From: Anaerococcus pacaensis 9403502
GTDB lineage: Bacteria > Bacillota > Clostridia > Tissierellales > Peptoniphilaceae
NCBI GenBank assembly: GCA_000308255.3
Contig: HG326663.1
Coordinates: 679,269 to 743,268 of the forward strand
Direction of reading: 5' to 3'
DNA length: 64,000 nt
The position numbers and the translations under genes are program-made. The notes below the pieces were generated by a model. That model was given only the letters and a program-made list of their open reading frames with translations, made no database searches and was not told the origin of the DNA. Each line of letters opens with the position of its first letter. The first letter of the stretch is position 1. Below are positions 38,621 through 61,116 of this stretch, piece after piece.

Positions 38621-38662
38621 TGTAACCTTTTTGTTGCAATTGTGATGATTATAGTTTATAAT
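38621..38662 (+). promoter_or_regulatory. Promoter of the cell-wall hydrolase gene with a WalR-like box
   Basis: TTGCAA (38634-38639) and TATAAT (38657-38662) are 17 bases apart. TGTAAC-CTTTT-TGTTGC (38621-38637) matches the WalR consensus TGTWAH-N5-TGTWAH with one mismatch and overlaps the -35 element. WalR controls peptidoglycan hydrolases in other Firmicutes, which fits the gene downstream. Confidence 0.6.
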
Positions 38663-38725
38663 ATGTTTGTATCATTCAAAACTAACAATAATTGTAATTA
38701 TATTGTAATAATAAACGAGGTAAAA

Positions 38726-40600
38726 ATGAAAAAGATAAACAAAACTTTATTACTTGCCTCAACATTGTTTGTTTCATCGGTAGGCTGCCTAGCTGACAGT
38801 GCTTTTGCTGATGAGGGATATAATCTTGATGTTGAGCCAAGTCCGATAACTTATCACGACTATAATCTAGAAGATGCTCTAACAGAAGTAAATACTGACA
38901 CATTAGAAGCAGAGGCTTCTGATATAGAAACTAGCGAATTACCACAAGACACTACTACAGAAGAACTACCACAAGACAATACTACAGATAAAGCTAGTGA
39001 AGATATCATTGATAGCCAAGTAAGCGCAGAGATTGAGTCAGCAGATATAGTTAAATACGACGATAGAAACCTAGATGACATCTTCAAACTCCTAGACGAA
39101 GAAGAAGGCGAAGAAGAATTAGAAGTAGAATCTGGGGCAGAAATCACAGAAGAAAAACCAGTGGAAGCTATCGAAGAAACCGTCATCAAAGAAGAAGTTT
39201 ACTACGCACCAAAAGGCACAGGTGTGATGGTAAATGAAGGTGGAAATCTAAAATATTATGAAGATAATAAATTAGTTAAAAATGACAAAGTCATAGTAGA
39301 TGGCAAGTTCTACAACATAGATGAGACCGGTAAAGCTACCAATCCAAAAGCGATTTGGGGCAATATCGGATCAGACATATATTATATAACTGATGCCGGA
39401 TACATAGCTAAGGGTATCCACGAAATAAAAGCTAAAAAATATTATTTCAACAACGATGGTATCCTACAAACCAACAGAAGACTTGTCACAGGCGAATCAT
39501 ACTATGATGTAAATGCTGCTGGCGAAATGATCGCTCCAAGAAACAAATGGATTGATCTAAACAAAAAGACCTACTACAACGACAAAGATGGCAAGCTTTC
39601 AAAAGGCATCGTGACCATAGATGGCAAAGCTTACTACTTTGATACAGATGGCGTGCTTACAGCTAATAAAAAAATCGTAACAGATACAAAATACTATGTA
39701 GTAGATGACAAGGCTATGGTGACTAACCCTAAGAACCTTTGGTTTAACATGGGTGGCAATGTTTATAGAACAGATGAAAATGGCAACCTAATGAAGGGCC
39801 TAAGAAAAATTGATAACAAAGACTACCTATTTAACAGCGATGGCAAGATGTATAAAGACCAAAAGGTGATAAATTCTGGAAAATTCTACGAAATAGACAA
39901 AGAGGGCCTAGTAACCAATCCAAAAAATTCTTGGGTAGAACTAAATGGCCAAAGATATCACACAAATGAAGCTGGATATGTAAAAGAAGGTGTGTGGAAG
40001 ATAGATAACGAGTACTACTACTTCACATCAAACGGCCTTACACCAAACCAAGTTGTAACTCAAAAAGGTGTCCTATACACAGTAGATGCAAATGGTATTG
40101 CAACCAAGCAAGACAACAACGTTCCTGGAGAAAAATCAATCGATAAGGTTATGGAATGGATGTTCAATGCTAGAACTTTAGGACTAACCTACAATATGGG
40201 CGCAGGTCGTACTAGCGCTACACAAGCTGACTGCTCATCTGCAGTATACAGAGCCCTAATATACGGAGGCTTCCTAGAACCTACATCATGGGTAGGCAAT
40301 ACTGAGACCCTCTTCCAAATGGGAGCAAAGGGAACTATCATGTATGAAATCCAGGAAAATGAAATCCAACACGGAGATATCTTCGTATCAGGTCGCCCTG
40401 GTGCATCAGCAGGAGCTGCTGGCCACACAGGCTTTATCCTAAATCCAATCGAAGATACTATCATCCATATGTCTAGTGGTTCAAATGGTGTAGCTGTCAC
40501 CCCTAGAAAAGGCTATATGGGAGATGGCAGAGGCCTACCTGTTAAATACTACAGACTAGTTGGTGCAAATTCTGCAAATATATATATGAATAATAAATAG
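38726..40600 (+). CDS. Secreted peptidoglycan hydrolase with wall-binding repeats and an NlpC/P60-like C-terminus
   Basis: A 624-residue exported protein. Signal peptide (ADSAFA near residue 25-30), acidic linker (to about 160), then repeated units of the cell-wall-binding/choline-binding type (GKAYYFDTDGVL; KDYLFNSDGKMYKD; GQRYHTNEAGYVKEGV; EYYYFTSNGL) up to about 470. The C-terminal domain (about 480-624) looks like an NlpC/P60-type amidohydrolase or endopeptidase: ADCSSAV (catalytic Cys503), GHTGFIL (His567) and IIHMSSG (His581). The ATG at 38726 is chosen because AACGAGG lies upstream and a typical signal peptide follows; an ATG at 38642 would give no proper signal. Confidence 0.82.
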   Translation: MKKINKTLLLASTLFVSSVGCLADSAFADEGYNLDVEPSPITYHDYNLEDALTEVNTDTLEAEASDIETSELPQDTTTEELPQDNTTDKASEDIIDSQVSAEIESADIVKYDDRNLDDIFKLLDEEEGEEELEVESGAEITEEKPVEAIEETVIKEEVYYAPKGTGVMVNEGGNLKYYEDNKLVKNDKVIVDGKFYNIDETGKATNPKAIWGNIGSDIYYITDAGYIAKGIHEIKAKKYYFNNDGILQTNRRLVTGESYYDVNAAGEMIAPRNKWIDLNKKTYYNDKDGKLSKGIVTIDGKAYYFDTDGVLTANKKIVTDTKYYVVDDKAMVTNPKNLWFNMGGNVYRTDENGNLMKGLRKIDNKDYLFNSDGKMYKDQKVINSGKFYEIDKEGLVTNPKNSWVELNGQRYHTNEAGYVKEGVWKIDNEYYYFTSNGLTPNQVVTQKGVLYTVDANGIATKQDNNVPGEKSIDKVMEWMFNARTLGLTYNMGAGRTSATQADCSSAVYRALIYGGFLEPTSWVGNTETLFQMGAKGTIMYEIQENEIQHGDIFVSGRPGASAGAAGHTGFILNPIEDTIIHMSSGSNGVAVTPRKGYMGDGRGLPVKYYRLVGANSANIYMNNK

Positions 40601-40757: not shown

Positions 40758-42977
40758 ATGAAAATTAAAAGAATTTTTTCATCTGTAATGGCCCTAGGTC
40801 TTGCAACTACTCTAGTTGCTTGTGGTGGAGAAAGCGCACCTGCAGATAATCCTGCAACTGACGGTCAAGCTACAGAAACAGTAGAAGAAACTACTGACGC
40901 TGAAACTGAAGATACAGCTGAAGATGCTGATGATACAGCGGAAACTACTGAAGAATTAAGCGCTGATGAAACAGCTGAGGTAGAAAACTTCGAATCTCAA
41001 ACAGCTGGTGATACCCTAGTAGTAGGTGTACCTACACTAAATGGTGACTTTATCCAAGGTTTTGGTAATGATGCCAATGACGTATCAGTAAGAAGATTTC
41101 TAGGTATAGAAGGTGTAAATGGTTTCTGGACTTATGTACTAGACGAAAATGGCCAAATGCAATGGAATGCAGGAGCCCTAGCTGAAGAACCAAAATCAGA
41201 AGAAAATGAAGATGGATCTATAACAGTAACATTTAAAATACGTGATGACCTAAAATGGTCAGATGGTGAGCCTGTAACAGTAGATGACTACCTCTTCTAC
41301 ACTCTACTAAAATCAGACTACAACTACATCCCAATGAGTGGTTCTATGGAAATTGGTGCAGATTCACTAGTAGGCTATGATGAATTCCACGATGGATCTG
41401 TTGATGAATTTGCTGGAATAGAAAAAATCGATGACTACACCTTCTCTGAAACCATCAAGGCAGATGAGCTCCCATACTTTGACATCGAAGCATTAGCACA
41501 AGCAACAGCAAACCCAATGCACTACATTGCTCCAAACTTAGCTGTAGCTGACAATGGTAAAAAACTTGTAGTAAAAGAAGGCTATGAAGTAACAGAAGCA
41601 GATAAAGAAAACTACATCAAATCACTAGACACTAGAATCGGTAAACTAAACGAAGCATTCGAAGAATCTTATCCAGAAACTCCAGCTGAAGATAGCGAAG
41701 AGTACGAAGGCTATCAAGCAGCCCTAGAAGAACGTGATGGACAAGTAGCAGAGCTAGAAGAAAAAAAAGAAGGCGAAGTAGATCCTACTAGACTACTAAT
41801 CGACCAAGCTATCATCTTTGAAACAGAAGACTATAGATTTAACCCAGCTGTAACTGAAGGACCATATAAGTTTGATTCTTATGAAAACAACATGGTTAAA
41901 ATGAGCCTAAACGAACACTATGCAGGCAACTTCAGAGGCGATAAGGCAACTATTCCAAATGTAATCATGCAAGTAGTTAACAAAAGTATCGCAGTAGACC
42001 TACTAGAATCTGGCGATATTGACATTTGGGAAGATGAAACTGAAGGTGGTAAAATCGACCAAATGAGAGCTGCAGCAGACCGTGGCGACATCCAAATCGG
42101 AAGTTTTGAACGTAATGGTTATGGTAACCTAACCTTCTTAGCTGACAGAGGTGCTACCCAATATAAGGAAATCCGTCAAGCTATCGCATACCTATTGGAT
42201 CGTAACGAATTCGTAGCCAACTACGCTGGTGGTTATGGTGTAGTAACAAATGGTATGTACGGTACTAGCCAATGGATGTACCATGAACGTGGGGCTGATG
42301 TAGAAAATGAAATCACAACCTACACCCTAAACATCGATAAGGCAAACGAACTACTAGATGCTTCTCCATACAAATACGAGGCTGATGGTACTACTCCTTG
42401 GGACTTTGAAAAAGCTCAAGCTGAATTTGACAATAACTTAGATAACTGGGACTATTATAGATACGATGAAAATGGTAATAGACTAGTAGTAAACCAATTT
42501 GGTTCTGATGAATCACCAATTACAACCCTTATTTCAAACCAACTTCCAGTAAATGCTGCCCAAGTAGGTATGGAATATAACGTAACAGCTGGTGCTTTCT
42601 CAACACTAGTAGACCTATACTACTATCCAGAAGAAGATGCAGAATACACAGCATTTAACATGGGTACAGGCTTTGGAACACCATTTGACCCATGGTTATA
42701 CTACTCATCAGAAGGTCCATACAACAAAACAAACACCAATGACCCACGTGCTGATGAAGTAACAGAAGCCATGAGAAGAACAGATCCAGAAGATAGAGAA
42801 GGCTACCTAGATAAATGGGAAGAATTCCAAGCATGGTACAATGACTACCTACCAGAGATTCCTCTATACTCAAACATTTATCACACAGGCTACTCAAACA
42901 GAGTACAAGGCTTTGACATCATGAGTCCAACCTGGCACTCATATGAACAAATAAATGCTATGAGCCTTGCAGAATAA
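40758..42977 (+). CDS. oppA: Oligopeptide ABC transporter binding lipoprotein (enlarged OppA, copy 1)
   Basis: A 739-residue SBP_bac_5-type lipoprotein that would capture peptides for the Opp permease. The lipobox is LVAC (Cys22), followed by an acidic linker. Binding-protein signatures include VTFKIRDDLKWSDGEPVTVDDYLF, YRFNPAVTEGPYKFDSYENNMV and REIRQAIAYLLDRNEFV. The usual length is about 540; here a helical insertion with long Glu/Lys runs (about residues 275-350) and the long linker add length. GGGAGAT precedes the ATG. A paralog follows after its own terminator. Confidence 0.9.
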   Translation: MKIKRIFSSVMALGLATTLVACGGESAPADNPATDGQATETVEETTDAETEDTAEDADDTAETTEELSADETAEVENFESQTAGDTLVVGVPTLNGDFIQGFGNDANDVSVRRFLGIEGVNGFWTYVLDENGQMQWNAGALAEEPKSEENEDGSITVTFKIRDDLKWSDGEPVTVDDYLFYTLLKSDYNYIPMSGSMEIGADSLVGYDEFHDGSVDEFAGIEKIDDYTFSETIKADELPYFDIEALAQATANPMHYIAPNLAVADNGKKLVVKEGYEVTEADKENYIKSLDTRIGKLNEAFEESYPETPAEDSEEYEGYQAALEERDGQVAELEEKKEGEVDPTRLLIDQAIIFETEDYRFNPAVTEGPYKFDSYENNMVKMSLNEHYAGNFRGDKATIPNVIMQVVNKSIAVDLLESGDIDIWEDETEGGKIDQMRAAADRGDIQIGSFERNGYGNLTFLADRGATQYKEIRQAIAYLLDRNEFVANYAGGYGVVTNGMYGTSQWMYHERGADVENEITTYTLNIDKANELLDASPYKYEADGTTPWDFEKAQAEFDNNLDNWDYYRYDENGNRLVVNQFGSDESPITTLISNQLPVNAAQVGMEYNVTAGAFSTLVDLYYYPEEDAEYTAFNMGTGFGTPFDPWLYYSSEGPYNKTNTNDPRADEVTEAMRRTDPEDREGYLDKWEEFQAWYNDYLPEIPLYSNIYHTGYSNRVQGFDIMSPTWHSYEQINAMSLAE

Positions 42978-43334: not shown

Positions 43335-45629
43335 GTGAAAATGAAAAGAATATTTTCGTCCGTAATGGCACTAGGATTAGCAACAACTCTAGCAGCTTGT
43401 GGGGGAAATACAAATCAACCAGCTGACAATACAGCTAACGAAGCTTCTACAGAAACAACTGAAGTAGAAGAAACAACTGAAGATGCAGCAGAAGAAACTG
43501 CAGATGACGCAGCAACAACAGATGATGCTGAAACTGAAGATGATGCTGAAGAAACAGACGACACTGATGACACAGCAGCAGAAGATGAAGAAGATAACCT
43601 AACAGCAGAAGACAAAGCTGATCTTGAAAACTTCGACAATGTAACAGCAGATGATACACTTGTAATCGGTTCACCTGAGATGAACGGTGACTGGATTTCA
43701 GGATGGTCAAACTCTTCATACGACGTACGTGTTCGTAAACTTATGGGTATCCAAGGTAACAATGGTTACAGCACTGTAGTTCAAGATGAAGGTGGTCAAT
43801 GGGTAAACAACCCAACAGTACTAGCTGAAGATCCAGAAGTAGTAGATAACGAAGATGGTTCTAGAACAATTACTTACAAAATTAACCAAGACCTTAAATG
43901 GTCAGATGGTACACCAATCAATGCTGACAACTACCTATATGGTGCACTACTTTACTCACACCCATCATATATCCCTGTAACAGCATCTACATCTATCGGT
44001 GCTGACTCACTAAAAGGCTATGCAGAATACCACGATGCTAGCTCAGATGTAGATTTCCTTGAAGGACAAAAGAAAATCGACGACTACTCATTCTCAGTAA
44101 CAATCGATGAATCATTCCTTCCATACTTCGAAGAAGCAGCTTTATCAGCAGCAGGTCCATTCCCACTTCATGCTATTAGCGAAAACTTAACTATCAATGA
44201 AGATGGTACAAAACTAGTAGCTAAAGAAGGATATGAACCAACTGAAGAAGAAATCAACGCTTATAAAGAATCAATCCAAACACAAATTGATAAAATGAAT
44301 GAGGACTTCGATGCTAACAACGAAGCTCCAGCTGAAGATGCAGACGAAGAAGAAAAAGCAGCTTATGATGAAGCTAAAGCAGCTCACGATGAAGAAGTAG
44401 CTAAACTTTCAGCTCGTCTAGAAGGCGACATCGACCCTACACAACAGCTAATCGAACAAGCAATGCTTAAACTAGCTAACGAATACAGATTTGCACCAAC
44501 AGTTGTAGAAGGTCCATACAAGTTTGAAAGCTTTGAAAACAACATGGTTAGACTTTCTCTAAATGAAAACTATGCTGGTAATTTCAAAGGTGAAAAAGCT
44601 ACAATTCCAAACATCATCGTTCAAACAGTTAACTCTAACATCGCAGCTGACCTTCTTGAAAATGGCGACATCGACATCTGGGAAGACGAAGCTACAGGTG
44701 GTAGAATCGACCAAATGAGAGCAGCAGCTGATGAAGGAAAAATCAAATACAACACATTTGAAAGAAATGGTTATGGTAACCTTACATTCATCACAGATAG
44801 AGGCGCTACAAAACATAAAGAAGTACGTCAAGCTATTGCTAACCTAATGGATAGAAACACATTCGTACAATCATTTGCTGGTGGTTACGGTGTAGTAACC
44901 AACGGTATGTACGGTCTAAGCCAATGGATGTACCAAGAAAGAGGAGCAGATCTTGAAGATAAGCTAACAAACTATCAACTAAACCTTGATACAGCTAATG
45001 AACTTCTAGATGCATCTCCATACAAATTCGAAGCTGATGGTACTACACCTTGGGATAAAGCAAAAGCTGATGAAGCATTTTCTTCAAACCCAGATGGTTA
45101 TGACTACTGGAGATATGATGAAAATGGTAAGAAACTAGTGGTTAACCAATTCGGTTCTGATGAATCAGAAATCACAACACTAATCTCTAACCAACTTCCA
45201 AACAACGCTAAACAAGTTGGTATGGAATATAACGTAACAGCTGGTGCATTCCCAACACTACTAAACTACTACTACAACCCAGAAGAAGATGCAGAATATA
45301 CAGCGTTTAACATGGGTTCAAGTTTTGGTACACCATTTGATCCATGGTACTCACTAAACTCTGAAGGTCCAAACAACTATACAAAAACAAATGATCCAAG
45401 AATTGATGAACTTACAGTTAAACTTCGTCAAACAGATCCAACAGATGTAGAAGGATACCTAGATACATGGGAAGAATTCCAATTAGCATTTAACGATTAC
45501 TTACCAGAAATCCCACTATACTCTAACCAATACCACACAGGTTATACAAATAGGGTACAAGGATTTGAACTAAATACACCAGTATGGGGTGCGGCTGATC
45601 AAATCAATGCAATGACACTTGGTGAATAA
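43335..45629 (+). CDS. oppA: Oligopeptide ABC transporter binding lipoprotein (enlarged OppA, copy 2)
   Basis: A 764-residue paralog of the preceding protein, with the same signal (Cys22 in LAAC), a longer acidic Thr/Asp/Glu linker and the same helical insertion (Ala/Glu/Lys-rich, near residues 315-365). Many stretches are almost identical to copy 1, such as GGYGVVTNGMYG and the ASPYKxEADGTTPWD region. I use the GTG at 43335 because GGAGG lies 9 bases upstream; the ATG at 43341 would be 15 bases away. Two binding proteins with one permease set may broaden peptide range. Confidence 0.9.
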   Translation: MKMKRIFSSVMALGLATTLAACGGNTNQPADNTANEASTETTEVEETTEDAAEETADDAATTDDAETEDDAEETDDTDDTAAEDEEDNLTAEDKADLENFDNVTADDTLVIGSPEMNGDWISGWSNSSYDVRVRKLMGIQGNNGYSTVVQDEGGQWVNNPTVLAEDPEVVDNEDGSRTITYKINQDLKWSDGTPINADNYLYGALLYSHPSYIPVTASTSIGADSLKGYAEYHDASSDVDFLEGQKKIDDYSFSVTIDESFLPYFEEAALSAAGPFPLHAISENLTINEDGTKLVAKEGYEPTEEEINAYKESIQTQIDKMNEDFDANNEAPAEDADEEEKAAYDEAKAAHDEEVAKLSARLEGDIDPTQQLIEQAMLKLANEYRFAPTVVEGPYKFESFENNMVRLSLNENYAGNFKGEKATIPNIIVQTVNSNIAADLLENGDIDIWEDEATGGRIDQMRAAADEGKIKYNTFERNGYGNLTFITDRGATKHKEVRQAIANLMDRNTFVQSFAGGYGVVTNGMYGLSQWMYQERGADLEDKLTNYQLNLDTANELLDASPYKFEADGTTPWDKAKADEAFSSNPDGYDYWRYDENGKKLVVNQFGSDESEITTLISNQLPNNAKQVGMEYNVTAGAFPTLLNYYYNPEEDAEYTAFNMGSSFGTPFDPWYSLNSEGPNNYTKTNDPRIDELTVKLRQTDPTDVEGYLDTWEEFQLAFNDYLPEIPLYSNQYHTGYTNRVQGFELNTPVWGAADQINAMTLGE

Positions 45630-45980: not shown

Positions 45981-46943
45981 ATGTTTCGTTATATAGTAAA
46001 GAGAATTATAAGTTTGATACCAGTTGCTCTTATAATTTCTATATTATTATTTGCATTTAGTAAAGCCATGCCTGGCGATCCTATACAGGCTATGATGCCA
46101 ACTACAGGCCGTATGACCAAGGCCCAACAAGAAGAATTATATAAGACATTAGAAGCCCGCTACGGTTATGATAAGAGCCTACCTGAACAATACGTCAAAT
46201 GGTTAGGTAGATCTTTACGTGGGGACTTTGGTGAATCTACATCTAAGAAAAGACCGGTAAAAGAATACCTAAAAGAGCCACTAAAAAATACTATCTACCT
46301 AAATATCGGTTCTACAATTATTTCATTTGTACTGTCGGTGCTTATAGGTATTAGGTCGGCCACCCATAGGGGAGGTGTATTTGACCGAACCTTCCAGACG
46401 CTAACTTTAGTTGGTTTGTCTATACCAGTTTTCTTTATAGGTCTATTGTGTATATATTTCTTTGCCTTTAAACTTGGCTGGTTCCCAGCTAATGGTATGC
46501 CAAGAGAAAATACTTTTGGCCAATGGGTAAGATACTTAGCCCTACCTACGCTTACACTTACCATAGGTTCTCTTGCAGGCCTTTCAAGATATGTAAGAAA
46601 CTCTATGCTTGATGCTCTAAACCAAGACTTCATCCGTACAGCAAGATCTAAGGGTTTGGCTGAAAAGACTGTTATATATTCACATGCATTTAGAAATGCT
46701 CTTATACCAGTAGTTACAGCCCTTACTTGGTCTATACTTGGCATGTTCTCAGGTTCTGCTATTACAGAGCGTATCTTTGCTTATAGGGGTATAGGAAACG
46801 AACTTATTTCTGCCGTTATGGCACAAGATTATAATATAATTTTGACTCTATCAATGTTTTATGCATTATTGACACTACTTGGTAACCTAATAATGGACGT
46901 TGCTTATGCATTAGTTGACCCTAGAGTTAAATTGGAAGCTTAG
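45981..46943 (+). CDS. oppB: Oligopeptide ABC transporter permease OppB
   Basis: A 320-residue permease with six membrane segments, starting with FRYIVKRIISLIPVALIISILLF. It has the dipeptide/oligopeptide permease pattern (MPGDPIQAM; GDFGES) and the ATPase-contact EAA loop (DFIRTARSKGLAEKTVIYSHAFRNALIPV). AAGGGAAG precedes the ATG; the oppC gene follows after 9 bases. Confidence 0.94.
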   Translation: MFRYIVKRIISLIPVALIISILLFAFSKAMPGDPIQAMMPTTGRMTKAQQEELYKTLEARYGYDKSLPEQYVKWLGRSLRGDFGESTSKKRPVKEYLKEPLKNTIYLNIGSTIISFVLSVLIGIRSATHRGGVFDRTFQTLTLVGLSIPVFFIGLLCIYFFAFKLGWFPANGMPRENTFGQWVRYLALPTLTLTIGSLAGLSRYVRNSMLDALNQDFIRTARSKGLAEKTVIYSHAFRNALIPVVTALTWSILGMFSGSAITERIFAYRGIGNELISAVMAQDYNIILTLSMFYALLTLLGNLIMDVAYALVDPRVKLEA

Positions 46944-46952
46944 AGGTCTTTT

Positions 46953-48944
46953 ATGAACAAATATATAAGTAAATCATTTAGCTCATATAAGAGCTTTTTA
47001 ACTAATCAATTACGTCGTGGCTTTACTTTTGCAGCTGATGATGTTCCAGAAATTGAAAATGAACCAAGAGTTCCAGAAGACCGTAGACTCATAGAAGATG
47101 AAGTAGAAAACTTCAATAATCCTAACCAAAATATAGGTACTATGGGTGACCCTTCATCAGAAAATAAGGACCTAAAAGAAGAAGCTATCAGATCCCCAGG
47201 AAAGGTAGCAGTTAGAAACTTCTTTAGAAACCCACTTGGGGTTTTTGGTCTAATATTATTTATAGCTATGGTGCTAGTAGTATTTGTAGGTAGCTCTATG
47301 CTTCCATTTAACCAATACTACTCACAAGGTAACCTTACAAACATCCCACCAGGGGGAGCATATATGAATGTTCCATCTGCTATGGAAAAAGAAGGTACAC
47401 AAAAGATAGGTATCGGTAATACCTTTGCTGTTGGTCTTACAAATGAAAATAATATCTATGTTTGGGGCCAAGATAACCCTGTAGCAAAAGAAACTGTAGT
47501 AAATATCCCAGAAAAAGCTAAAGAAGCTTTTGCCAACAAAAAAATCGTAGATGTGGCAGCGGGTGATAGACATATTATCGTTGCTACAGAAGATAACGAA
47601 CTATATGGTTGGGGTAACAACTCTTTTGACCAAACCAAGATGCCTCCTATGAATGAATCTAAAATCAAACAAGAAGGTATCGCAAAACTAGGTGCTGGTG
47701 TTCAGTATTCAGTTGTCCTTACAAAAGAGAAAAATATTTATGTATGGGGTTCAACCCTTGCCAGCCGTCTAAATATGATTCCACCATCTATCCAAGGTAC
47801 TGTAGAAGACTTTGATACATCTGCTATCAACATACTTGTGGCAAAATCTGATGGTACTGTACAACTTCTAGGCGTAAAGGGTGCAGAAAATGACTCTGCT
47901 ATGCCAGAAGAAGTAAAAGATGGGTCAGTATTTGTAACAAATGTAGCTCTTACTAGCAACTCTGCAGCAGCCCTTACTAAAGAAGGGGATGTAATAGTGT
48001 GGGGTCCTTCTAGAGCAGGCACAGCTGGTAACAATGTCCCAGAATTTGAAGCTCCTATTGTAGATATCGAAGGTGGTGAAACAACATTTACTGCCCTAGA
48101 TAGCAATGGTAAGACCTATACATGGGGTAAAGACAACTACGGGGAATTAAATTCTCCAGATGGCGAGTATGATCAAATCTATGCATCATACTTTAATAAC
48201 TATGCAGTAAAAAAAGACGGAAATATAGACACATGGGGCCTAAATGGCTTTAGATTTGGTTCTGATGACCAAGGTCGTGATATTTTCACAAGACTTATCC
48301 ACGGTGGTCGTATGACTATGATCATCTCGCTTATATCAACAGTTATCCAAGTAGTACTTGGTGTACTAATTGGTATGATAGCTGGTTTTGCTGGTGGACG
48401 TGTGGACAATGATTTGATGAGAATATCTGAGATTATTTCATCATTCCCATTTTATCCAATGCTTATTTCCCTATCAGCACTCCTACCACCAGGAGCTAGC
48501 CAAACACAAAGAATCACCATGGTAATGGTACTCCTTGGTTTATTAGGTTGGACAGGCCTTGCACGTCTAGTGCGTGGACAAATCCTTGCTGAACGTGAAC
48601 GTGACTATATCACAGCTGCTCGTGCACTTGGGGTAAAAAATTCCACAATCATGATCAACCACGTATTGCCAAATATATTACCAATCGTAATAGTAAATGC
48701 GACTTTAGGTTATGCTGGTAACTTACTATCAGAATCTGGGCTATCATTCCTAGGTTTCGGTGTCCAAGAGCCAACACCATCTTGGGGTAATATGCTAACT
48801 GCAGCTCAAAGCTCAGATGTGCTTAAGTTCTACTGGTGGAGATGGGTATTCCCAGCATTAGCAATCTTCTTGGTATCATTCTCTATAAACCTTATCGGGG
48901 ATGCTATCCGTGATGCTATCGACCCAAGAGCAAATGAGAGATAG
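46953..48944 (+). CDS. oppC: OppC permease with an inserted RCC1-like beta-propeller
   Basis: A 663-residue permease, about twice the normal length of OppC. Residues 95-117 (GVFGLILFIAMVLVVFVGSSML) form the first membrane helix. Residues about 146-432 are an insertion with repeated units ending in WG (VWG 170, GWG 219, VWG 264, VWG 349, TWG 390, TWG 427), each with a pattern like VAAGDRHIIVATEDNELYGWG, as in RCC1 repeats. The standard OppC sequence resumes at FGSDDQGRDIFTRLIHGGR and continues through the EAA loop (DYITAARALGVKNSTIMINHVLPN) to the end. By topology the propeller lies outside the cell between TM1 and TM2. Its reading frame is open throughout. Confidence 0.92.
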   Translation: MNKYISKSFSSYKSFLTNQLRRGFTFAADDVPEIENEPRVPEDRRLIEDEVENFNNPNQNIGTMGDPSSENKDLKEEAIRSPGKVAVRNFFRNPLGVFGLILFIAMVLVVFVGSSMLPFNQYYSQGNLTNIPPGGAYMNVPSAMEKEGTQKIGIGNTFAVGLTNENNIYVWGQDNPVAKETVVNIPEKAKEAFANKKIVDVAAGDRHIIVATEDNELYGWGNNSFDQTKMPPMNESKIKQEGIAKLGAGVQYSVVLTKEKNIYVWGSTLASRLNMIPPSIQGTVEDFDTSAINILVAKSDGTVQLLGVKGAENDSAMPEEVKDGSVFVTNVALTSNSAAALTKEGDVIVWGPSRAGTAGNNVPEFEAPIVDIEGGETTFTALDSNGKTYTWGKDNYGELNSPDGEYDQIYASYFNNYAVKKDGNIDTWGLNGFRFGSDDQGRDIFTRLIHGGRMTMIISLISTVIQVVLGVLIGMIAGFAGGRVDNDLMRISEIISSFPFYPMLISLSALLPPGASQTQRITMVMVLLGLLGWTGLARLVRGQILAERERDYITAARALGVKNSTIMINHVLPNILPIVIVNATLGYAGNLLSESGLSFLGFGVQEPTPSWGNMLTAAQSSDVLKFYWWRWVFPALAIFLVSFSINLIGDAIRDAIDPRANER

Positions 48945-48952
48945 AGGCGAAT

Positions 48953-49960
48953 ATGACTTTATTAGAAATTAACAATCTTCACACATATTTCTCTACTAGA
49001 CGTGGTCTTATCAAGGCTGTAAATGGCGTATCATTTACAGTCGATGAGGGTAAGACCCTAGGTCTAGTAGGAGAATCAGGTTCGGGTAAGTCTCAAACAG
49101 CTATGAGTATCCTCCAACTGTTTGAGCCAAACCAAAAGATATACGAAGGTGAAGTAATCTATAATGGTACTGACCTTACAAAAATTAAAAAAAGCGAAAT
49201 GGAACACATCAGAGGTAACGAGATCTCTATGATCTTCCAAGAACCTATGAGTTCCCTAAACCCTGTATTTACAGTAGAAAGACAAATCGGTGAAGTTCTT
49301 ATGCTTCACGAAGGTCTAAATAAGCAACAAGCAGCAGAAAAAGTACAAGAATTACTTGCTGCCGTTAAAATTCCAAACCCACATGTAGTTACCAAACAAT
49401 ATCCATTTGAACTATCAGGTGGTATGAACCAAAGGGTAATGATTGCCATGGCCCTTGCCTGCGAACCAAAACTACTTATCGCAGATGAGCCTACAACAGC
49501 TCTTGATGTAACTATCCAAGCTCAAATCCTAAGGCTGATGAATGACCTAAAGCATAGACTAAACACATCTATCCTTTTCATCACTCACGACCTTGGGGTT
49601 ATCAATCAAATGGCCGATGAAGTAGCTGTAATGTATTCTGGTCAAATTGTAGAGCAATCTCCAGTAGAATATATCTTCAAGACCGACATCACAGACTACA
49701 ACCACCCATACACAGTAGCACTTTTAAACTCTATCCCATCTATCACATCAGATAGAAACGAAAGACTAGATATCATCCCAGGATCTGTACCTCACCCACT
49801 TAACCTCCCACCAGGATGTAAGTTTGCAGACAGATGTAGGTTTGCTACAGAAAAATGTATCAACCAAATGCCTGAACTAGTACAAGTTACAGAAAACCAA
49901 AGGATTAGGTGCCACTACCCAAATAGAAAGGAAAGAGAAGATGGAAAATACAAACAATAG
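48953..49960 (+). CDS. oppD: Oligopeptide ABC transporter ATPase OppD
   Basis: A 335-residue ATPase: [10 protein letters not shown] (Walker A), [12 protein letters not shown] (Q loop), [15 protein letters not shown] (signature), [16 protein letters not shown] (Walker B) and THDLGV (H loop). The C-terminal oligopeptide-type cysteine motif ([14 protein letters not shown]) of Opp/Dpp ATPases, a probable Fe-S site, is present. It overlaps oppF by 20 bases. Confidence 0.95.
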
Positions 49961-51560
49961 AGAGGTCTTATTTAAGATAAGAAACCTCAAAAAATATTTC
50001 CCTCTTAAGAAAAAGAGCATATTCGACAGAAGCCCACAGGCCTATGTCCATGCCAACGAATCAATCGACCTTGATATCTATAAGGGTGAAACACTAGGAC
50101 TAGTAGGAGAATCTGGATGTGGTAAGTCTACATTTGGTAGAACACTCCTACAAATTTATGACCAAACAGAAGGAACTACCCTATACTACGGCAAAACCAT
50201 CGATGACATTGCTCCAGAATATATGGGCAAGATGATCAAAGATATACCAAGCCAGTTCCCAAATTACGCCAAAGCCCGCAAAGAACTTGATGACATATAT
50301 GGCCAAATAGAAGCTGCTACTACCGACGAAGAACGTGCTGCAGCTAATGAAAAAGCTATGTTTAAGCGCCGTGAAATCGAAGATAAGTACCTAAATATGA
50401 TTAGGATAGCAGGTGGACTTCTTACAAGCTCTGACCTAAACAAAGTATCAAAGATGCTTAGCGAACACTACAGCATCCTTCGTGAACGCGCTGCTATTAT
50501 CGACCAAATCGAAGTAATGGAAGATAAGCTAAAGATGAGAAGCCGTGATTGGGATGAATACTATGATGCAGTAGACAAAGACCCAAAACACAATGAACTT
50601 ATCGAAAAACGCGCTGAACTTTCAAAAAAAGCTGGGGCGAAATATAACGAAATCGAAGAATATAGAGCGACTTTAACTTCTAATGAAGCTTTTGAAGAGC
50701 TTGAAAGCCAAAAAGACCGTGGTATCGACTTATCTGAGCTAAACATCGAAGAGATGAGAAACCTTAGAAAAGACCTACAAATGATATTCCAAGACCCTTA
50801 CGGATCTCTAGATACAAAAATGACAGTAGGTAACATCATCGGTGAAGGTGTCCTAGGCCACGAGCTATTTAAAAACCGTAACGAAGAAGGCTACAATGAA
50901 TACATCCAAGAAACTATGGAAAAATGTGGGCTTGCTCCATACTTCCTACACCGTTTCCCTCACCAATTCTCTGGTGGTCAAAGACAAAGAATCGGTATAG
51001 CAAGAGCCCTTGCATTAAAACCAAAGTTCATCGTTTGTGACGAAGCTGTATCAGCCCTAGACGTATCGATCCAATCGCAAATCATAAACCTACTTCAAGA
51101 CCTTAAGGAAGAAAATAACCTTACTTACCTATTTATCACCCACGACCTTTCAGTAGTTAAATACATCTCTGATAGGATTGGTGTAATGTATCTAGGTGTG
51201 CTAGTAGAACTTGCTGACAGTGAAAAGATTTTCGAAAATCCACTTCACCCATACACCCAAGCCCTACTACAAGCCATCCCTCGTACAGACGTAGACTCTG
51301 GCCAAGAGCTAGCTACAATTGATGGAGACATTCCATCAGCTGTAAACCCACCTAAAGGTTGCCGTTTCCACACCAGATGCCCATACGCTATGGATATCTG
51401 TGCTTCATATGAGCCAGAACTTAAGGACTATGAAAATGGCCACTTCGTGGCTTGCCACTTGATGGAAGTCTCTGAAGAAGAAAAGCAAAGAGCTTTTGAG
51501 AAAAACCAAGCTAAGAAGGAAAAAGAAGAGCACGAACTTGAGGAAATGAGCGCTCTATGA
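49941..51560 (+). CDS. oppF: Oligopeptide ABC transporter ATPase OppF with a long helical insertion
   Basis: A 539-residue ATPase; usual length is about 320. Walker A (GESGCGKST, residues 56-64) is followed by an insertion of about 180 residues (about 86-265) rich in Lys, Glu and Ala, predicted helical or coiled coil (KARKELDDIYGQIEAATTDE). The standard fold resumes at LRKDLQMIFQDPYGSLD (Q loop), then FSGGQRQRIGIARAL, FIVCDEAVSALD (Walker B with Ala for the usual Pro) and THDLSVV. The C-terminal CRFHTRCPYAMDIC motif is intact. The insertion is in frame, so the protein is probably functional. Confidence 0.92.
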   Translation: MENTNNREVLFKIRNLKKYFPLKKKSIFDRSPQAYVHANESIDLDIYKGETLGLVGESGCGKSTFGRTLLQIYDQTEGTTLYYGKTIDDIAPEYMGKMIKDIPSQFPNYAKARKELDDIYGQIEAATTDEERAAANEKAMFKRREIEDKYLNMIRIAGGLLTSSDLNKVSKMLSEHYSILRERAAIIDQIEVMEDKLKMRSRDWDEYYDAVDKDPKHNELIEKRAELSKKAGAKYNEIEEYRATLTSNEAFEELESQKDRGIDLSELNIEEMRNLRKDLQMIFQDPYGSLDTKMTVGNIIGEGVLGHELFKNRNEEGYNEYIQETMEKCGLAPYFLHRFPHQFSGGQRQRIGIARALALKPKFIVCDEAVSALDVSIQSQIINLLQDLKEENNLTYLFITHDLSVVKYISDRIGVMYLGVLVELADSEKIFENPLHPYTQALLQAIPRTDVDSGQELATIDGDIPSAVNPPKGCRFHTRCPYAMDICASYEPELKDYENGHFVACHLMEVSEEEKQRAFEKNQAKKEKEEHELEEMSAL

Positions 51561-60198: not shown

Positions 60199-61116
60199 AT
60201 GGAAACAGTAGACAAATCTTTATTTGAACAGATTTCAGAAGATGATAAGTCTTCCGAGTTTATAGCTAGACCTGTAGTTACATATTGGTCTGATGCTTGG
60301 AGACGTTTTAAACAAAATAAACTAGCGCTATTAGCCCTAATTATCCTTATTTTGCTTACAATAATGGTAATCATAGGCCCTTCGCTAACCCCATATGACT
60401 ATGCAGAATTTGCAGGCCTACCAAATCAAAAGCCCAATAGTGAATTTTGGTTTGGTACAGATGACCTAGGTCGTGATATCTTCACCAGACTATGGCGAGG
60501 TGGTAGGATCTCTATCGTTATTGGTATAGCAGGTGCGCTTATTTCGACAATTATCGGTAGTATTTATGGGGCCATCTCTGCATACTTTGGTGGCAAAGTG
60601 GATACAGTAATGATGAGAATAGTAGAAATCCTAATCTCTATCCCTTATCTACTTATAGTTATTATCCTAAGGCTCGCCCTAGATTCATCTGGCATGGGTA
60701 CTCTTATACTAGCGATGACTATCACAGGCTGGTGCGGGCTTGCTAGACTTGTTCGTGGACAAATACTATCACTAAAGGAAAATGACTTTATAAAGGCTGC
60801 ACAAGTCCTAGGTGTCAGCAACAAAGACATAGTATTAAAGCACTTATTACCAAATACTTTAAACGTAATACTCGTTGCCATATCCTTTGACGTGCCAGGC
60901 TATATCTTCTCAGAAGCATTTCTATCATACCTATCACTAGGTGTACAACCACCAGAAACTTCTTGGGGTGCTATGGCTTCAGCTGCGCAAAGTTATTTCC
61001 AATTCTATCCATACCAATTATTTTTCCCATCACTAATGATTGCCCTTACCATGCTTTCATTTACACTTTTAGGTGATGGTCTAAGAGATGCGTTAGATCC
61101 AAATCTTAGAAAGTAG
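60199..61116 (+). CDS. oppC: Peptide ABC transporter permease, OppC/DppC type
   Basis: A 305-residue permease of normal length: first helix LALLALIILILLTIMVIIGP, extracellular entry FWFGTDDLGRDIFTRLWRGGR with no insertion, EAA loop DFIKAAQVLGVSNKDIVLKHLLPN. It is a useful contrast to the RCC1-bearing OppC of the first locus. The ATG at 60199 has GGTGGA upstream; the longer frame from 60160 overlaps oppB. Confidence 0.94.
   Translation: METVDKSLFEQISEDDKSSEFIARPVVTYWSDAWRRFKQNKLALLALIILILLTIMVIIGPSLTPYDYAEFAGLPNQKPNSEFWFGTDDLGRDIFTRLWRGGRISIVIGIAGALISTIIGSIYGAISAYFGGKVDTVMMRIVEILISIPYLLIVIILRLALDSSGMGTLILAMTITGWCGLARLVRGQILSLKENDFIKAAQVLGVSNKDIVLKHLLPNTLNVILVAISFDVPGYIFSEAFLSYLSLGVQPPETSWGAMASAAQSYFQFYPYQLFFPSLMIALTMLSFTLLGDGLRDALDPNLRK

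Follow-up and report, generated by a model that had tools for sequence, protein, structure and literature searches.

Opp importers are textbook systems for which cryo-EM structures have recently become available. RCC1, UVR8 and HERC2 are eukaryotic proteins of the cell interior, and BLIP-II is secreted. MalF-P2 is another loop, with another fold, than the OppC propeller described below. In E. coli DppABCDF, according to the available part of the structural report, DppC interacts with DppF and DppB with DppD, residues N113 and E124 of DppF contact DppC, and the region of DppB that follows TM1, the scoop, enters the cleft of DppA and grips it (PMC12136057).

The predicted propeller in OppC

The locus examined here lies in a 64,000-nucleotide stretch of Anaerococcus pacaensis 9403502 (the window), in which the operon around oppC also holds genes for OppA, OppB, OppD and OppF, as expected of an Opp/Dpp-type system (Table 1). 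oppD begins 8 bases after oppC, and oppF overlaps oppD. Just upstream of the operon, positions 38642-40600 of the window encode choline-binding-type repeats joined to an Amidase_5 peptidoglycan hydrolase domain.

Table 1. Features of the propeller-bearing Opp operon, with positions counted from the first letter of the window
Feature	Position	Strand	Basis or remark
oppA lipoprotein 1 (739 aa)	40758..42977	+	SBP_bac_5
oppA lipoprotein 2 (764 aa)	43335..45629	+	SBP_bac_5
oppB, ordinary length (320 aa)	45981..46943	+	9 bases before oppC
oppC with inserted propeller (663 aa)	46953..48944	+	frame, Pfam, AlphaFold2
OppC TM1, residues 94-116	47232..47300	+	AlphaFold2 helix; OppC_N
linker from TM1 to propeller, residues 117-148	47301..47396	+	
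predicted RCC1-like seven-bladed propeller, residues 149-429	47397..48239	+	Pfam, AlphaFold2, fold comparison
junction and permease core, residues 430-660	48240..48932	+	BPD_transp_1 at 470-660
oppD, ordinary (335 aa)	48953..49960	+	Walker A to Q-loop spacing 47
oppF with helical insert (539 aa)	49941..51560	+	Walker A to Q-loop spacing 219
OppF insert, residues 86-264	50196..50732	+	between Walker A and Q-loop

As originally predicted, the 663 residues of OppC form one open frame. Both permease domains score above their curated Pfam cutoffs, OppC_N at residues 81-133 (39.3 bits against 23.9) and BPD_transp_1 (108.9 bits against 26.4). The best NCBIfam match of the permease part is Opp4C (NF045476) at 303.6 bits, below the curated cutoff of 350, which leaves the window OppC outside that equivalog. 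On the evidence of its domains, its modelled fold and the genes of its operon, the protein is nonetheless an Opp/Dpp-type permease. Between the two domains, RCC1_2 matches six stretches at 110.1 bits (cutoff 22, E 2.8e-32), while PF00415 (19.0 bits, cutoff 21.7) and WD40_RLD (118.5 bits, cutoff 150) both fall short; a PF00415 search of the window's own genome gave no match and is uninformative, since its controls gave none either.

An AlphaFold2 model built on 66 aligned OppCs (mean pLDDT 84.7, pTM 0.76), predicted as a monomer like the other structure considered here, turns this pattern into a fold. After the TM1 helix at 94-116, which the original prediction had placed at 95-117, the model forms seven strand triplets (149-172, 198-221, 243-266, 284-306, 328-350, 369-392 and 406-429), and the remaining helices follow from residue 444. 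Confidence drops below 50 at residues 24-79, and in the propeller, ten-residue blocks score between 78 and 96, the majority at least 90. The RCC1-like propeller of at least six repeats that had been proposed thus emerges with seven modelled blades, and the standard OppC motif expected near 435 is present as well, with FGSDDQGRDIFTR beginning at exactly that residue. By VIA-align, the nearest solved fold of the propeller is BLIP-II (3qi0_A; Z 31.7, rmsd 1.9, 256 aligned, 25% identity), followed by the RCC1, UVR8 and HERC2 propellers with Z from 22.6 to 29.4; the permease part of the predicted model fits E. coli OppC (8z21_B) with Z 30.9 over 278/278 residues, in the model range 79-658. Foldseek agrees with these assignments. 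Since E. coli OppC matches the rest of the protein and BLIP-II the inserted part, a whole propeller appears to have been set into a whole OppC, and the loop insert, as modelled, is an RCC1-like seven-bladed propeller. The second OppC of the window (60199-61116) has both permease domains and no RCC1 match in Pfam, in line with the claim that it lacks the propeller.

The TM1-TM2 regions of E. coli DppB and DppC are periplasmic in the available part of the Dpp report (PMC12136057). The known Dpp structures therefore place the OppC propeller loop on the outer face, which supports the outward orientation proposed earlier.

The junction from the propeller toward TM2 (430-435) is short and conserved, with a mean conservation of 0.84 against 0.54 for the whole propeller. 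The window propeller is acidic (pI 4.6) and cysteine-free; across the 66 aligned sequences, pI has a median of 4.9 and a range of 4.1-8.1, and cysteine is rare, yet present (55 of 20551 residues). The two faces of the propeller are equally conserved when A-B loops are compared with B-C loops (p = 0.70). Values of dN/dS lie between 0.028 and 0.328 for the propeller in 20/20 hand-chosen pairs and between 0 and 0.095 for the permease core, the estimates being approximate in several pairs whose dS exceeds 1. The propeller is retained by purifying selection, yet evolves faster than the permease core.

The same loop carries other additions elsewhere. In two other genomes (L033:2558-4387 and L034:168-1925), OppC has an unrelated insert of about 290 residues at this place, with no Pfam match above cutoff; the accompanying OppFs are 342 and 321 residues long, and in the tree the proteins fall on branches separate from the propeller clade. 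Three further loci (L037:2069-3250, L038:2439-3638 and L039:2193-3380) encode OppCs of 393-399 residues, and the one copy read, that of L037, has roughly 100 extra residues in the TM1-TM2 loop. The occurrence of unrelated inserts in the same OppC loop of other lineages suggests an insertion hot spot.

Distribution of the propeller-bearing OppC

A homologue that covers most of the length of the propeller-OppC, at 63-100% identity and without stops, is present in 31/31 genus genomes searched. Among 30 genomes from outside the genus, two (G060 and G039) carry a homologue at 40% identity, and none was found in the 6 genomes of other family genera within that same comparison; a wider scan recovers the propeller-OppC in other genera of the family, in 13 genomes from 9 genera. 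At least 79 loci, taken from the best 80 of 95 relatives scanned, span many Anaerococcus species, Soehngenia longivitae, Clostridium sp. Cult3, Falcatimonas sp. and metagenome-assembled Lachnospiraceae, Erysipelotrichaceae, Oscillospiraceae and others, so that the architecture, among the loci listed, is not confined to Peptoniphilaceae. An HMM of ordinary OppC cores finds propeller and OppC core in one frame in 79/79 of these loci (E at most 6.1e-37); 77 of the frames are complete, and contig ends truncate those of L073 and L118.

Within the order, 64/249 genomes have a strong propeller match, including G226, whose match is partial and lies on a short contig piece. A class sample drawn evenly contains the propeller-OppC in 17/391 genomes, 16 of them with full propeller coverage in frames of 609-666 residues, the 17th being G463. 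A phylum sample has full coverage in 14/398 genomes (frames of 555-666 residues), of which G000 and G039 are already counted. In 12/12 class and phylum genomes that were fetched, propeller and OppC core share a single frame; the genomes beyond those 12 are assigned by frame length. Weaker or partial propeller matches in other frames were left out of the counts (18 genomes in the order, 16 in the class and 14 in the phylum). In the 696-residue OppC of G463 (L162:7940-10030), about 70 residues form an additional acidic loop between propeller blades.

Open frames in many species had been expected of a genuine domain fusion, and the genus and the listed loci provide them. Misassembly or a one-genome oddity is ruled out by these same sets, and the broader notion that the propeller-OppC is an assembly or annotation artefact, against which the single open frame in every listed locus and genus genome argues, has a negligible probability.

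Three loci (L076, L077 and L089) come from records labelled Chloroflexi or Anaerolineaceae and carry the propeller-Opp system. L076 nests among Clostridia in trees, which indicates gene transfer or a mis-binned metagenome contig. The window's own genome holds a second propeller-OppC (L041:12641-14626, on contig C6), accompanied by a separate OppB and OppA; in the 19 kb fetched, neither OppD nor OppF could be recognised next to it. Because this genome has one OppF insert only, the ATPases encoded in the window operon may serve both propeller permeases.

The OppF insert and its co-occurrence with the propeller

A second insert, in OppF, is newly recognised here; the original prediction made no mention of it. 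The spacing from Walker A to Q-loop is 219 residues in the OppF of the operon, as against 47 in the adjoining OppD and 42 in the second OppF of the window, which amounts to about 180 extra residues. AlphaFold2 (57 sequences, pLDDT 87.3, pTM 0.86) predicts four helices in the insert (93-125, 129-162, 166-200 and 204-243). Outside it, OppF fits E. coli OppF (8z21_D) with Z 36.7 over 325/328 residues, and structural comparison of the model with solved chains aligned the NBD around the insert. For the insert itself, the best match among solved chains is weak (E 0.0001), which does not by itself mark its fold as new. Its window copy matches 0 Pfam families, and among 30 members scattered coiled-coil-type families appear in single members. 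With the exception of the OppF insert, all parts of the system come from known families.

The long OppF spacing accompanies the propeller wherever OppF could be read. It occurs in 71/71 readable cases among the 79 loci listed, at 196-249 in 70 and at 217 in L102, whose OppF frame is broken beyond the measured spacing; in L073, L080, L083, L086, L092, L097, L109 and L112, OppF is off the contig or cut before the measurement. Short ATPase spacings, measured in 77 of the loci, are all 47. Twelve further propeller loci all have a long OppF spacing (206-230), whereas in the 8 ordinary operons whose OppC is closest in sequence (L151-L158) no spacing falls outside 42-48.

Counted by strong matches over the 249 genomes of the order, both inserts occur together in 63, the OppC insert alone in 1 (G207), the OppF insert alone in 0 and neither in 185, weaker or partial OppF-insert matches in 11 further genomes not being counted. 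The G207 contig, 3494 bases long, breaks off within OppD, which puts OppF out of sight; in three fragmented genomes (G211, G226 and G228) the two insert matches lie on different contigs. Both inserts are present in 17/391 genomes of the class sample, in which G347 shows the OppF insert only, on a contig whose 3742 bases leave no room for OppC. Fisher's test for co-occurrence in the order gives very small values which, because the genomes are related, do not count independent events.

Quick trees bear on the origin of this association. In the tree of permease cores (54 rows), propeller-OppCs fall on one side of a branch with SH-aLRT 93, below the starred level, and in the tree of OppF without its insert (39 rows), insert-bearing OppFs fall on one side of a branch with SH-aLRT 99. 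The same ordinary sister, L158, appears in both, with support of 92 (OppC core) and 85 (OppF), and forms a long branch; its OppC loop is short and nothing is inserted ahead of the Q-loop of its OppF, which does have some extra residues near the N-terminus. The trees are compatible with a single origin, which means that the co-occurrence need not reflect many independent events, and on the simplest reading both inserts arose on one stem branch and have stayed together ever since. A single origin would also suit the view that the inserts have simply been inherited with one ancestral operon, as passengers that are tolerated and do nothing important. Low omega in all 20 chosen pairs speaks against such neutrality, however, as does the fact that no readable locus has lost either insert alone, and the passenger explanation is very unlikely.

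The coupled inserts mark a widespread importer subtype in gut and skin anaerobes, found in many Anaerococcus species and in rumen and gut Clostridia. No paper on this combination of parts was found among the open-access papers searched.

Possible roles and comparison with known systems

The preferred reading of the two inserts is tentative, with a probability of about 0.4. The propeller, standing next to the entrance, would serve as a platform on which the large OppA lipoproteins, or the peptides that they carry, are held or positioned over the pore, in the manner of the DppB scoop and MalF-P2 in other importers, and the OppF arm would stabilise or tune the OppC-side ATPase or tie it to a cytoplasmic partner. 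Position is in keeping with both halves. Because the scoop follows TM1 of DppB, the OppC propeller stands in a place paralogous to that of a scoop in OppB, and because DppF contacts DppC, the OppF insert sits in the ATPase expected to touch OppC, as far as the available part of the Dpp report describes these contacts (PMC12136057).

The binding proteins are compatible with an added contact, since, by sequence, they are mostly larger than ordinary ones and seem to contain extra blocks. Among 50 operons that passed a completeness filter, OppA of propeller operons has 598-757 aa, as against 561-601 aa in 7 ordinary operons, the 598-aa protein falling inside the ordinary size range; OppA1 of the window has extra aligned blocks within residues 258-354 relative to 7 ordinary OppAs. 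OppA had been named at the outset as a possible contact, but distance correlation over the 50 operons did not single it out (partial r 0.06, interval -0.04 to 0.16). Partial r with the propeller was 0.47 for OppD, 0.29 for OppB and 0.18 for the OppF core, with raw correlations all at least 0.91. As the highest value belongs to OppD and not to OppA, the distance correlation is either uninformative or against OppA docking. The equal conservation of the two propeller faces speaks against docking as well.

Alternatively, the propeller might itself be a receptor that binds peptides, a secreted protease, cell-wall material or a host protein and feeds the transporter. The solved fold closest to it is that of BLIP-II, a beta-lactamase inhibitor whose propeller binds protein, and the faster evolution of the OppC propeller relative to the permease core is what a ligand-facing domain may display. 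A gene for a PepF-like M3 oligopeptidase (for instance L111:13203-14954) lies within the fetched flanks of 9/90 loci (a raw count; one copy each above the Pfam cutoff), which would fit a peptide receptor as well. The window operon nevertheless keeps two OppA proteins, which should already bind substrate, and a receptor role is rather unlikely.

Position and co-occurrence can also be read as two-sided regulation, in which the propeller senses an outside state, the OppF arm passes on or picks up a signal in the cytoplasm, and the importer doubles as a sensor. The inserts lie on opposite membrane sides by position, in subunits that touch each other in Dpp, and they co-occur; MalF-P2, to judge from the title of a reference, provides a precedent for signalling to the ATPase. 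A cluster of sigma-70-type factors flanks 8 Anaerococcus-group loci, the one copy checked (L061:1912-2598) being confirmed by Pfam, but in that comparison, which covered the 25 most widespread gene clusters, it occurs in 0 loci outside that group. The distances of propeller and OppF insert likewise show no special correlation (partial r 0.05 over the 50 operons), and regulation of this kind is doubtful. Adjoining the sigma factor, also in 8 loci, is a cluster of 110-aa genes (L060:1165-1497) without a Pfam match. These genes presumably resemble an anti-sigma kinase.

Still broader, and unlikely, is the possibility that outer propeller and inner OppF arm are one module, gained together, that couples the state of an outside ligand or binding protein to a cytoplasmic partner or to ATPase control. 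If that were true, propeller-Opp would be a distinct importer type that is also a receptor. Propeller-Opp offers a clean way to ask how an outer permease loop communicates with the binding protein and with the matching ATPase.

The propeller has RCC1-type repeats and fold in common with RCC1, UVR8 and HERC2. A eukaryotic-type RCC1 function, such as guanine exchange on Ran, is unlikely in an outer bacterial domain, and neither the guanine-exchange nor the light-sensing roles of these proteins are expected of the OppC propeller. BLIP-II (PDB 3qi0, 3qhy, 1jtd) shares the RCC1-like fold but is a separate protein and not part of a permease. The window OppC differs from Opp4C (NF045476) in the inserted propeller. 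E. coli OppBCDF and DppABCDF (PDB 8z21, 8z1v-8z1z) have the same gene set, and their OppC and OppF cores align with those of the window; their binding protein is soluble (PMC12136057), whereas OppA here is a predicted lipoprotein. The E. coli OppBCDF and DppBCDF chains compared have no counterpart of the propeller or of the OppF insert. Neither the DppB scoop, two short helices in the B subunit, nor MalF-P2 is a propeller, yet in the available parts of their descriptions both are, like the OppC propeller, an outer part of a type I importer subunit, placed in their case at the binding protein (PMC12136057, PMC8134467).
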